Shown here: in pieces, positions 14,323-53,811 of the stretch
How the letters are laid out: the number at the start of each line of letters is the position of its first letter
How positions within the stretch are numbered: position 1 is the stretch's first letter
NCBI GenBank assembly: GCA_028281535.1
Contig: JANQJS010000046.1
Coordinates: forward strand, 1-64,000
DNA from: Sedimentisphaerales bacterium
GTDB taxonomy: Bacteria; Planctomycetota; Phycisphaerae; Sedimentisphaerales; SM23-30
DNA length: 64,000 bases
Reading direction: 5' to 3'
Notes under the pieces: generated by a model
Seen by the model: only the letters and a program-made list of their open reading frames with translations
Told to the model about the DNA's origin: nothing
Databases searched by the model: none
Program-made: the position numbers and the translations under genes

Positions 14323-14400
14323 GTTGATATCCTTTACACAAAATAAAATTTTAAAACACAAAAACTAAAATTTTATTACACACACGTTTTCGTATAGAGG

Positions 14401-14445: not shown

Positions 14446-17070
14446 TTATTGACGTCTTTGTCGCGGGGCTATTGAAATTTCAAATGATTCGGTAGTCTCT
14501 TTTTTGACAAAGATGATCATGTTGCGACCATCAAGTTTGTCATGGGAACCTATGCGAGCATTACGATTTCCGCCACGTCGTACTCGCTCACCATCAATCG
14601 ATATGCCAAAGCGTCCTTGTGGCATATCTTCTATGACGATGGCAAGATTGTGTACCGGACGACCTTCACTGGCATCAATTGTAATATCTAATGGCATGGC
14701 ACGTTTTGAAGAAGCCTTGATGATGTAGGCTCTTTGAGCTGGATCATAGCCGACATATTCATAGCCTTCACTGTCTTCAATGGATAATTCTGCAGGAGAT
14801 AGCCAGGATTTACCAATGGCACCTAATTCACCAGCCGGTTTGTCAGTCATACCATTAAGCATGAGCCAGGTACGTCTGATGCCTTCTTGCTCATACATTT
14901 TCCATCGAATGTGTGAAACAGAGGTGTGAGATGGTTTGTCTGCCGATGAAGCAACCGTTGTATCTGAGCGTTCTTGTGCGACCGGCCAGTGGTTCCACCA
15001 ATTGAATCGACTGCCTGGTGCATGGCCACCATAAGGGCCAATCGCAACACCTTCTGATGGATCAACCACAGAGAAGGGGCGTGTTTTGTGTTTAAAGTTA
15101 ACGACTTGAATCGATGGGTCGGTTGGAGGGTCAGGAAATCCGTCGCTACCATTTTCACCCCACATATAGGTTTTACTTTCACCCTTTAAGTTGGCAAAGG
15201 AGAGGGCTCCAAATTCGATGTTGTCTTCTGGGATGGTGCCAGGTTGGTTGATGATGATACTTTCTTGATATTCTACCCAGTGATTGTCAGGCGAACCTGA
15301 ATGTAGGTTGGCTTTACGTACACCGATTGAATCTGGATAGAAAGTATAAATTTCATCTACCCAGTCACCAATGCCTGTGACAGGGTCTTTGTAAGGTATT
15401 TCATAATCAAGATCATTGGGGGTATATCGCCAGTGAACAACGACGCGCGCCGGATTGGATTCTATGATACGTACATGAGAATAACGGCACTGTTTGTCTG
15501 ACATTGGTTCACACATGGTTTGACTTTTGACACCACCAAGAAAGCCGCGGCGTTCAAAAAATTCGTTTGTATACCATGCACCATCATAGGTGGCCCAGCA
15601 GGGGATAAAGCTCGTGCCGCGCCAAAAGACAAACCGGTGATCAGCATCATCAAATTGTACGATGACATCGGGGAAATTTTCAACACGCCATAGGCTATCC
15701 CACTCATAGTCATATTTTAAGCGGGCATATTTTGCTCCAAAAGTTCCTTTGCCTCTAGGGCCTGAGGGCAAGCGTTTTGGCATGGACTGAATAAACTCAT
15801 TCAATTCTTTTGCAAAATTTACTGCCGGAGTATGAATGGGGACCGATTTGTCCTCTAAAGTCTCGATAATACCCAGTCCTTTATCATTTAACTGGCTGAA
15901 TTTGTTTTTGTATTCTTGCCAATGTGTATCTTGTTCATCGAAATTACTGTCAATATAGTTGATATTTGTATTTGCTTTATCAAATGCCTTGGTCATGTAA
16001 TAGATCGACTGGATTCTTTGTAAGGCATTATAATCACTAATGCTTTTCGCGTAGTTAATGACCCTATTTTGTTGTCCCATATCAGGCATTGCCTGGGCGT
16101 AGCGTAGAGCGACGTCAGATAGGGTGTTCCAATCGTCTGTCCAAATATTATCTTTTGTTTCAGTCGCAATTTGATCAATTTCATCTTTGTTATTAAAATC
16201 TTGTTCAATCGATTGCCACAAAAAATATTGATCACTGTTACCTGAATTTGTAGGCAACGCGATAAATGATTCACCATTGAATTGCTTGGCTTGTCCAATT
16301 TTTCCAGGAATGGTTTCAGTTTTAATTTCTAGCAAGGCATGATTTTCATTACCAGACATATCTTTGAAATGACCGTCAAGCGACCAGTGTCCAGTGAGCC
16401 CTTCTTTAACCTCTTCGAGTTGATAAAGTTTTTTGAGTTCATCACTGCTTAAAGCGCGGTTAAACAGTTTGACATCATCGATACTTCCAACAAATCCTTT
16501 TTCACTTTGTTCGGGAAAATCACTAGTAGTATATCCGATTTTGATGGCATGCGTGTCAACGTCAAATGATGTATTCTGGCCGCCAGAACCTACTTCTTCT
16601 CCGTCAACGTAAAACACTAATTTGCTATTATTTTGAGAGGATACTATGGCAACGTGATGCCATTGATCATCATTAATAGAGCTGTTTTCTGCTTCAGTGG
16701 TTCCAACGTATCCAATATCAAATGCAAGTGTGCCATTAGATTCTGGTTCGCTTGAAATGAAAAAACACTTGGCGTTAGGTGCATAGTCAGAATTGACTGG
16801 AGCTTTTGATAAAATGGTACCGCCTCTGGTTGTTTTTACCCAAGCAGTTATGGAGTAGTTGTCGCTATCAAATCTTGGTAAAGGTATTGATGGTTTTTTG
16901 TCTCCTTGGAGGGCTTTGAGTTTTTCTCTTGAGGCATACATGGTTTCTTGCCAACTATCTTTTTTCTCATAAAAAGGTAATTTGGCAGCAGCAATACTAC
17001 AATAAGACATTGTAATTAATAAAGATAACATTAAGGTCAGGTTGACGGATTGTCGTTGGACTTGGTACAT
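14446..17070 (-). CDS. Large secreted LamG-domain protein
   Basis: 874 residues with a signal peptide (LTLMLSLLITMSYCSIAAA). A LamG/concanavalin-like jelly-roll lies at about residues 70-215 (YSITAWVKTTRGG through FVGSIDDVKLFNRALSSDELKKLY), then a linking segment starting GLTGHWSLDG. A helical region (about 280-420) precedes a large C-terminal beta-rich domain with many Trp/Tyr. LamG domains bind glycans, so a role in polysaccharide binding or breakdown is plausible, but I recognise no catalytic motif. The ATG at 17070 has AAGGAA 9 nt upstream. A promoter and palindrome lie at 17154-17210. It is followed by an unusual hairpin instead of a terminator. Confidence 0.82.
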   Translation of the reverse strand: MYQVQRQSVNLTLMLSLLITMSYCSIAAAKLPFYEKKDSWQETMYASREKLKALQGDKKPSIPLPRFDSDNYSITAWVKTTRGGTILSKAPVNSDYAPNAKCFFISSEPESNGTLAFDIGYVGTTEAENSSINDDQWHHVAIVSSQNNSKLVFYVDGEEVGSGGQNTSFDVDTHAIKIGYTTSDFPEQSEKGFVGSIDDVKLFNRALSSDELKKLYQLEEVKEGLTGHWSLDGHFKDMSGNENHALLEIKTETIPGKIGQAKQFNGESFIALPTNSGNSDQYFLWQSIEQDFNNKDEIDQIATETKDNIWTDDWNTLSDVALRYAQAMPDMGQQNRVINYAKSISDYNALQRIQSIYYMTKAFDKANTNINYIDSNFDEQDTHWQEYKNKFSQLNDKGLGIIETLEDKSVPIHTPAVNFAKELNEFIQSMPKRLPSGPRGKGTFGAKYARLKYDYEWDSLWRVENFPDVIVQFDDADHRFVFWRGTSFIPCWATYDGAWYTNEFFERRGFLGGVKSQTMCEPMSDKQCRYSHVRIIESNPARVVVHWRYTPNDLDYEIPYKDPVTGIGDWVDEIYTFYPDSIGVRKANLHSGSPDNHWVEYQESIIINQPGTIPEDNIEFGALSFANLKGESKTYMWGENGSDGFPDPPTDPSIQVVNFKHKTRPFSVVDPSEGVAIGPYGGHAPGSRFNWWNHWPVAQERSDTTVASSADKPSHTSVSHIRWKMYEQEGIRRTWLMLNGMTDKPAGELGAIGKSWLSPAELSIEDSEGYEYVGYDPAQRAYIIKASSKRAMPLDITIDASEGRPVHNLAIVIEDMPQGRFGISIDGERVRRGGNRNARIGSHDKLDGRNMIIFVKKETTESFEISIAPRQRRQ

Positions 17071-17426: not shown

Positions 17427-17964
17427 ATGGGTCATCTTACTTTACAAAAAGCGTGTAATCATCAGATAGATATCGTGTTGGAATTACTGAAAAAAGCAGC
17501 CTATTGGATTCAGACTAAAGATATTGATTACTGGCAGGATTGGATTAATCCGCCTCAGCATTTTGTTGATTGGATAGAGGCCGGCTTTTTCAGGGATGAG
17601 TTTTATTTTGTTATTCTTGAGGAGCGTATTATTGGCTGTTTTAGGCTTCAATGGGATGATGAATTATTTTGGGGAAAACAGCAACCAGATTCGGGATATA
17701 TTCACTCTTTTACGATCGATAGGGAGTATAGCGGTCATGGAATTGGCAAAGACGTTTTGGCAATGATTGAAACAATGTGTTTGGACAATGATTGAAACAA
17801 TGTGTTTGGACAATGATAAAACTCGATTACGTTTAGATTGTGGTGTACACTTGAAAGAGCTTCGAAGCTATTATGAATCTAATGGGTTTATGAACGTTGG
17901 TCAAACCGTTGTTCATGACGAGTCTTTGGTGTTATACGAAAAAGAACTAAGCCCAAATCTTTGA
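17427..17964 (+). pseudogene. GNAT acetyltransferase broken by a 25-bp tandem duplication
   Basis: The N-terminal part (MGHLTLQKACNHQI) runs into the acetyl-CoA motif REYSGHGIGKDVL and then stops at TGA 17793-17795. The C-terminal half continues in another frame to 17964. An exact 25-bp duplication (17761-17785 and 17786-17810) causes the shift. Removing one copy gives 513 bp, an uninterrupted frame of 170 residues with normal GNAT length and the ending LVLYEKEL. The two repeat copies are identical, so the event is recent, phase-variable or an assembly error. A GNAT would acetylate an amine of a small molecule or protein; the substrate is unknown. Confidence 0.88.
17761..17810 (+). repeat. 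25-bp perfect tandem duplication inside the acetyltransferase gene
   Basis: Two identical adjacent 25-bp units (17761-17785, 17786-17810), each beginning CAATGATTGAAACAATG, followed by a partial third start CAATGAT at 17811. The unit contains internal CAATG repeats that could promote slippage. Because 25 is not a multiple of 3, the duplication shifts the frame. Confidence 0.98.
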
Positions 17965-17994: not shown

Positions 17995-18318
17995 TTAAAC
18001 ATCGAGTGTTACTAGCCAATTTGATTGCATTTTGGAAAAATCGAGATAGTTAACAATACCATCTCCTGGGGTCGGACAGATATCCGCGGCACTGTTTTCA
18101 TCTAGCCATGATTCAGATAGGATCATCACATCTTTAATATCAACGGTATTGTCGTTATTTAAATCGCCTTCTAATATAGGTTCATTTTCGAACATTGCAT
18201 GGCTGCTTTGGGTGTCAAGAAAAGATCCCATTGCCAGGAAAAAGATTAAAAGTAATATTGTTGAAACAATCGTAGTCTTTGTGTTTTCTGATGTTTGCAT
18301 CTTGTCGAACCTTTCCAT
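17995..18318 (-). CDS. Small secreted dockerin-only protein
   Basis: Up to 107 residues; the in-frame ATG at 18300, with AAAGG 9 nt upstream, may be the real start. An N-terminal hydrophobic segment (TIVSTILLLIFFLAMG) precedes two dockerin-type calcium loops: GDLNNDNTVDIKDVMILSESWL and, less perfect, GDGIVNYLDFSKMQSNWL. Nothing else is present, so it is essentially an exported dockerin module. Dockerins pair with cohesins in clostridia, but in planctomycetes they occur without known cohesins and their partner is unclear. Confidence 0.75.
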   Translation of the reverse strand: MERFDKMQTSENTKTTIVSTILLLIFFLAMGSFLDTQSSHAMFENEPILEGDLNNDNTVDIKDVMILSESWLDENSAADICPTPGDGIVNYLDFSKMQSNWLVTLDV

Positions 18319-52188: not shown

Positions 52189-52475
52189 TGTAAATCCTAT
52201 ATTTATGTTTAATTTGAGGGTTTTTGCTTCTATCGTCAGTCTAACTGGGGGCCTGAATGGGGTTTTTCAGATTCTACGGATATTTTCGATTGTGTGATTT
52301 GTGAGGTCGCGGCCTTTTTAACTATCAGAGCCAAAAGGGATTATGGGGTTAACAAAACACTCCTTTTTTAATTCTATTTATTTGTCTTAGGTAAATTGGT
52401 TATGGTCCAATAATTATGGTTAGATAAAGGAAAAGAAATTGACGCTGAATTCCCAGCGATTTACAATCAGACCAT

Positions 52476-52564
52476 ATCGCTAGGGGTGCCATGAATTTGG
52501 CTGAGATAGTCCCTTGGAACCTGATCAGTGACTCCATTTGGATTCAGCTGCGTAGGAAAGTGAT
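52476..52564 (+). promoter_or_regulatory. TPP (thiamine pyrophosphate) riboswitch aptamer
   Basis: The THI-box landmarks appear in order: AGGGGTGCC (52482-52490), GGCTGAGA (52499-52506), GGAACCTGATC (52516-52526) and GCGTAGGAA (52550-52558). The closing stem P1 is ATCGCT (52476-52481) / AGTGAT (52559-52564). The P4/P5 arm is unusual, with an extra small stem TCCA/TGGA. It is followed by an intrinsic terminator, so TPP binding should stop transcription. Confidence 0.93.
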
Positions 52565-52581
52565 TCAAAATTTAGCTTTTG

Positions 52582-52632: not shown

Positions 52633-53811
52633 ATGTCAAAAAGAATTTATTTTGATAATGCAGCCACCAGTTTTCCAAAGCCGAAGTGTGTTCATGATGC
52701 TATGACCGATTATGCAACGCGTGTAGGGGCTTCTTCAGGGCGGGGTGCATATCAAGAAGCGATGGAATCAGGCGAATTGATCAGTGAGACGCGGCGATTG
52801 GTTGCGGATTTAATTGGTGGTAAAAATCCAGATCACGTGGTTATGACATTCAATTGTACAGATGCATTGTCGATTGCCATTAAGGGGTTGATTAAAGATC
52901 GTTCTGATCATGTCATTACCACGCGAATGGACCATAACTCAGTTCTAAGACCATTAGCTGAACTTGAGCAAACATTGGGGATTGATGTCACATATGTTGA
53001 TGCCTGCCCAGAAGGCTTGATTGATCCTGATGATATTCGACAAGCAATTCGTACTAATACTAAACTTGTTGCGGTTGTTCATGCCAGTAATGTTTCAGGG
53101 AGTTTGCAAGATATTGATGCCGTTGGCCAGATTACGCATGAACATGGCATTCCGTTTTTGGTGGATGCTGCGCAAACGATTGGGCACATGCCAATCAATA
53201 TAGAAAAATCTCATATTGATCTACTTGCATTTCCTGGGCATAAAGGATTAATGGGCCCTTTAGGAACAGGTATACTTTATATTCGGCCCGGATTGGAATT
53301 TAAAGTGTCGCCACTACGAGTTGGTGGTACTGGGAGTAAAAGTGAATTAGCGGTCCAACCTGATTTTATGCCAGATCGATTTGAGTCAGGATCACATAAT
53401 GCGATTGGGATTGCCGGGCTAAATGCATCAATTAAATATCTTTTGGACAAGGGGATCGAATCTATTCATGAGCATGAAACAGATTTATGTCGTGAATTTT
53501 TAAATCTATCCAGCGGCATAGATGGATTGACTGTCTATGGCCCAAAAGATGTTAGAAATCGTATGGGTGTTTTTAGCGTGACTCTGGATGGATATTCTCC
53601 AAATGAATTATCCAATTTATTGGAAGAAAAATTTGGATTGCTCACGCGATCAGGGCTCCATTGTGCACCTTATGCTCATCAAGTTATCGGAACATATGAT
53701 CGTTCTGGAACAACACGGTTTAGTACCAGTTTTAATCATTCAATTGAGGATATCTCATTTGCTGTTAGCTCTTTAAATGAAATAGCCAAAATGTGCGTAA
53801 ATCAGGCATAA
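52633..53811 (+). CDS. Cysteine desulfurase-like class V aminotransferase, thiamine-regulated
   Basis: 392-residue PLP enzyme of the SufS/CsdA-like group (the am_tr_V EF2568 type). IYFDNAATSFPKP begins it, PLP-lysine is Lys204 in FPGHKGLMGP, and the catalytic cysteine is Cys344 in RSGLHCAPYAH, so desulfurase chemistry (Cys to Ala plus persulfide) is possible. It is controlled by a TPP riboswitch and terminator, which points to sulfur delivery for the thiazole ring of thiamine. The start is ATG 52633 with AGGAG at 6-nt spacing; the ATG at 52629 only opens an 8-codon frame. No thi gene is adjacent. Confidence 0.9.
   Translation: MSKRIYFDNAATSFPKPKCVHDAMTDYATRVGASSGRGAYQEAMESGELISETRRLVADLIGGKNPDHVVMTFNCTDALSIAIKGLIKDRSDHVITTRMDHNSVLRPLAELEQTLGIDVTYVDACPEGLIDPDDIRQAIRTNTKLVAVVHASNVSGSLQDIDAVGQITHEHGIPFLVDAAQTIGHMPINIEKSHIDLLAFPGHKGLMGPLGTGILYIRPGLEFKVSPLRVGGTGSKSELAVQPDFMPDRFESGSHNAIGIAGLNASIKYLLDKGIESIHEHETDLCREFLNLSSGIDGLTVYGPKDVRNRMGVFSVTLDGYSPNELSNLLEEKFGLLTRSGLHCAPYAHQVIGTYDRSGTTRFSTSFNHSIEDISFAVSSLNEIAKMCVNQA

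Follow-up and report, generated by a model that had tools for sequence, protein, structure and literature searches.

Does the exact 25-bp tandem repeat that divides a GNAT-family acetyltransferase gene into two reading frames, found in the genome of a Sedimentisphaerales bacterium (assembly GCA_028281535.1), reflect an ordinary inactivating mutation, a reversible on/off switch, a protein made in two parts, or an error of the assembly? The locus was analysed within the first 64,000 nucleotides of contig JANQJS010000046.1, hereafter called the window. The feature is real and of an ordinary kind, best read as a slipped-strand duplication that probably inactivated an accessory acetyltransferase gene.

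As for its surroundings, the window begins where the contig does, within a bacterial 16S rRNA gene (1-984, - strand) whose 3' end is cut by that boundary, and it carries a TPP riboswitch (52472-52575, + strand) directly upstream of the ORF at 52633-53811. Beyond the end of the GNAT gene, the opposite strand encodes a small dockerin type I protein (17995-18318, - strand), which scores 23.0 bits against a Pfam cut-off of 22.9.

The repeat and the interrupted reading frame

The repeat unit is CAATGATTGAAACAATGTGTTTGGA, and its coordinates are presented in Table 1 together with those of the affected gene parts. The period of 25 is exact over a 57-bp run, which amounts to 2.28 copies. As expected of a slipped-strand tandem duplication, the exact copies (a 25-bp unit) have a short direct repeat (7 bp) at their boundary. 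Tandem Repeats Finder reports the array at 17756-17817, with 2.5 copies once mismatches are allowed and a score of 117, the maximum for the window. In the sequence itself the duplication lies, to the base, where the first-pass annotation had located it.

Table 1. Coordinates of the 25-bp repeat and of the parts of the GNAT gene within the window.
Feature	Position	Strand	Description
Repeat copy 1	17761..17785	+	25-bp direct repeat
Repeat copy 2	17786..17810	+	Identical to copy 1
Partial third unit	17811..17817	+	CAATGAT, 7 bp; forms, with the unit start, the direct repeat bounding the duplicated segment
5' part of GNAT gene	17427..17795	+	ATG to premature TGA, 122 aa; N-terminal part and SGHGIG, which we take to be the acetyl-CoA loop
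Premature TGA stop	17793..17795	+	Arises from the frameshift; its three bases belong to copy 2
3' part of GNAT gene	17788..17964	+	+1 frame, 58 aa from ATG 17788; RLDCG...YY...GF part

Given that 25 leaves a remainder of one when divided by three, the duplication shifts the frame by +1. The ORF that starts at ATG 17427 ends after 122 codons, while the +1 frame is open from 17767 to the final stop of the gene, with ATG 17788 in frame. Ten residues, MIETMCLDND, are common to both halves, their source being the doubled segment, and the halves sum to 170 codons when these residues are counted once. The codon count therefore bears out the proposal that deleting one copy restores a GNAT frame of 170 codons.

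The 5' half matches the GNAT family PF00583 of Pfam with 34.1 bits, above the curated cut-off of 20.7 (E 3.7e-08), but this match covers positions 9-91 of the 116 in the family model. The rest is encoded in the +1 frame, and the 3' half alone matched no Pfam family. Given that the PF00583 match is incomplete in a single frame, the gene was filed as a broken member of the family. The 122-codon product would end before the RLDCG...YYxxxGF segment, which makes up the C-terminal part of the GNAT fold, and hence is, judging from the sequence, very probably inactive.

An alternative is that the protein is split but still made, through re-initiation at ATG 17788 after the TGA at 17793, with an N-terminal and a C-terminal part that have ten residues in common and may associate. 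This ATG indeed has the required frame and precedes the stop by five bases (ATGATTGA), MIETMCLDND is present in both parts, and conserved residues are kept in both halves. Such an arrangement is, however, expected of any duplication of this kind at this place; moreover, inspection found no good ribosome-binding site upstream of ATG 17788 (AAACAATGTGTTTGGACA), and no relative has a split form. We regard a split protein as highly improbable. Programmed +1 frameshifting was also considered and rejected, given that the overlap at 17767-17795 contains no known slippery or RF2-like site on inspection.

Intact relatives and distribution of the gene

Three close relatives were compared with the window gene. 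These are a protein of 167 aa from MAG A3_bin-117 of an uncultured Phycisphaerales (genome G290; identity of 57% to the 5' half and 47% to the 3' half), one of 165 aa from Marinilabiliaceae bacterium ANBcel2 (51% and 48%), and one of 173 aa from the Clostridia MAG ZodW_maxbin.143 (40% and 45%). The first was retrieved as two loci, L109 and L024, which are the same contig judging from length and position, so the relatives number three rather than four. When the 5' half alone was used as query against the genome contigs there was no match, and two-sequence alignment yielded three loci.

Both halves of the window gene align end to end with these relatives of 165-173 aa, which belong to three phyla. 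Family and length are alike, the difference being that all three relatives (40-57% identity, none of the same genus) carry the segment once, with the frame open and the spacing to the RLDCG motif unchanged. The PF00583 match in L024 extends over positions 10-116, whereas that in the broken gene ends at 91, and the sequence of L024 also resembles GNAT proteins of solved structure, for instance 2oh1 (E 6.7e-08). Hence the description of a GNAT gene broken by a frameshifting duplication and otherwise intact, as first given from the sequence of the window, agrees with the single-copy state of the three close relatives.

The same single-copy state in all relatives, together with the draft nature of the assembly (67 contigs), would also be expected if the second copy were a sequencing or assembly artefact and the genome truly had one. 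Against this, the 57-bp run fits inside one short read, assemblers in general collapse repeats rather than create them, and no similar extra repeat is present in the 42% of the assembly that was sampled; an artefact is thus unlikely. With no other genome of genus g1 among the 40 searched, the two-copy state could be that of a minority or an error.

The gene is patchily distributed. Matches at E <= 0.001 are found in five of the 397 genomes of the class, its own included, with an identity of 56% in G290 and of 26-31% in the other three. When the G290 protein was compared with a sample of the phylum, two of 392 genomes reached 1e-12, again with its own included. The genome contains 22 PF00583 matches above the cut-off, this gene among them, and this number, along with the patchiness within the class, is consistent with a dispensable accessory GNAT gene. 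That close relatives occur both in a Marinilabiliaceae genome and in a Clostridia MAG suggests, as far as sequence similarity can indicate, that the gene was acquired by horizontal transfer. In plasmid records there were three matches, with only 29-36% identity.

Gene surroundings differ between the loci. In G290, a DUF4145 gene (679-1350 of L024) precedes the GNAT gene on the same strand, and such a gene is absent beside the GNAT gene of the window. In the Marinilabiliaceae genome, the GNAT gene is flanked by what are presumably an OLD-like ATPase gene and a GrpB-like gene. Two kinds of cargo were considered and rejected: toxin-antitoxin cargo, as no partner gene adjoins the window gene on the + strand, and phage cargo, as no relative was found in phage records or viral contigs. 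The 32-base core of the repeat likewise has no exact match in the viral contigs. A candidate for a second broken GNAT gene, at C22:83280, has a PF00583 match that extends only to position 91; given that its frame continues to an apparent natural end, it was taken as a short GNAT and not as a broken one.

Origin and age of the duplication

A short direct repeat at the unit boundary is the usual footprint of replication slippage, and from the CAATGAT repeat we infer slipped-strand replication as the mechanism. In the single-copy ancestor of the gene, CAATGAT would have occurred twice at a distance of 25 bp, and a replication slip between the two occurrences would copy exactly 25 bp. The added bases would then put translation into the +1 frame and stop it after 122 of 170 codons, a loss that may have been selectively neutral or mildly beneficial, and spontaneous reversion would be expected at some rate. 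It is likely that slippage between the two CAATGAT copies produced the 25-bp duplication in this way, with the +1 shift, the stop at codon 122 of 170 and a product that is very probably inactive.

The seed itself is of an ordinary kind. Within the window there are eight exact matches of 7 bp or longer at an offset of 25, the duplication being one of them, and offsets of 10 to 60 together give 334. Given that 7-bp seeds are this common by chance, the site needs nothing special. On inspection, the G290 relative lacks this seed at the corresponding place.

Two further sources were weighed. End-joining with fill-in of a staggered break is generally known to yield tandem duplications of similar size, yet the 7-bp boundary homology suits slippage better, and no Ku homologue (PF02735) was found in the genome, in a search that was positive for only Bacillus subtilis among 14 control genomes. 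The lack of a Ku homologue makes end-joining less likely, and we consider it extremely improbable. Slippage promoted by a hairpin (stem AAACA/TGTTT) was proposed and dropped: the two-copy stretch folds better than its shuffles (z -2.69), whereas one unit folded together with its flank does not exceed them (z -0.56 on the + strand and -0.37 on the - strand), which means that the folding excess stems from the doubled stem.

The window and 100 further stretches of the genome were scanned, which corresponds to 42% of 4,441,190 bases, 11,953 of the scanned bases being N; the scan is blind to repeats across stretch ends and to the other 58% of the genome. No second perfect tandem unit of 13-600 bp is present in the 1,846,208 sampled bases, with three 12-bp units ranking next, and the next longest perfect unit within the window is of 9 bp. 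As the only such unit in 1.85 Mb sampled, the repeat is beyond chance. An imperfect AT-rich tandem repeat with a period of 22 is present at 14336-14382, just past the stop of an 874-aa ORF with a laminin-G domain (14446-17070, - strand).

The first-pass annotation had called the event very recent, given the identical copies and the intact remainder of the gene. The event is young in comparison with the divergence from the known relatives, but the numbers leave more room than that wording. Two identical 25-bp copies are, at 95%, compatible with as much as 11% divergence between them. Of the 1530 possible single substitutions over the 170 codons, 86 give a stop, and the lack of a second disabling change allows neutral divergence of up to 2.3-5.5% at 95%, if the ratio of indels to substitutions is taken as 0.2 to 0.05. 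Synonymous sites are saturated against all relatives (NG86 gives no dS), and the usable measures are dN and position-wise differences. Old duplications may be removed by slippage reversion, which would bias those that are seen towards young ones.

Reversal and comparison with known systems

It had further been proposed that the repeat may expand and contract as an on/off switch. As a contingency locus, the 25-bp repeat would contract and expand often, turning the acetyltransferase on and off, and would be under selection for doing so. Evolved contingency loci are recognised by a variable copy number, a conserved repeat tract and the presence of several such loci. Here, the repeat has about 2.3 copies, it is absent in all three close relatives, and the sampled 42% of the genome contains no set of such loci. 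In addition, 7-bp seeds like this one are common, and the product is presumably a GNAT of the cytosol rather than a surface structure. To our knowledge, no contingency loci of this kind are known in the group, and a narrow literature search likewise gave no match.

Two points favour a switch: the identical copies, together with 7 bp of homology in the flank, lend themselves well to deletion by slippage, and reversible tandem duplications are reported for pneumococcal capsule genes (Waite et al., as cited in excerpts of PMC4022640 and PMC4243769). Even so, the proposal gained no positive support from the tract or its distribution, and a selected, reversible switch is very unlikely. There is likewise only a slim chance of a contraction and expansion switch of a mobile GNAT enzyme in this planctomycete-like bacterium, whose off state would possibly give a re-initiated two-part protein.

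The slipped-strand duplication belongs to a mutation type that is already known. It neatly illustrates how an accessory gene can acquire a frameshifting duplication seeded by a short direct repeat, and it is a reminder for annotators that such 'pseudogenes' may revert. If the repeat proved to switch within a culture, the locus would represent a minimal contingency locus, the first known to us in its group.

Among known systems, PMC13410964 and PMC4235727 describe other types of switch or merely name the class. Closer cases are found in the pneumococcal capsule genes of serotypes 3, 8 (cap8E) and 37 (tts), for which spontaneous reversible tandem duplications were reported (Waite et al. 2001, 2003, through excerpts of PMC4022640 and PMC4243769). 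In the excerpt of PMC4022640, a reversion frequency of at most ~1e-5 is expected, for an insertion of nine bp at the longest. According to these excerpts, the pneumococcal duplications produce phase variation of a surface structure, whereas the window has a GNAT enzyme known from one sequence.

Reversible tandem duplications mediated by microhomology are also described for ssp1 of Schizosaccharomyces pombe, in an excerpt of a review of fungi (PMC13207564). Given that switching tandem duplications are known from both pneumococcus and fission yeast, a reversal of the present duplication by slippage is plausible. As in the window gene, short direct repeats bound the duplicated segment of ssp1 and a premature stop arises, as far as the excerpt describes it; the difference is that S. 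pombe is a eukaryote and that reversibility is described for ssp1 (PMC13207564), while for the window gene it is a plausible expectation.
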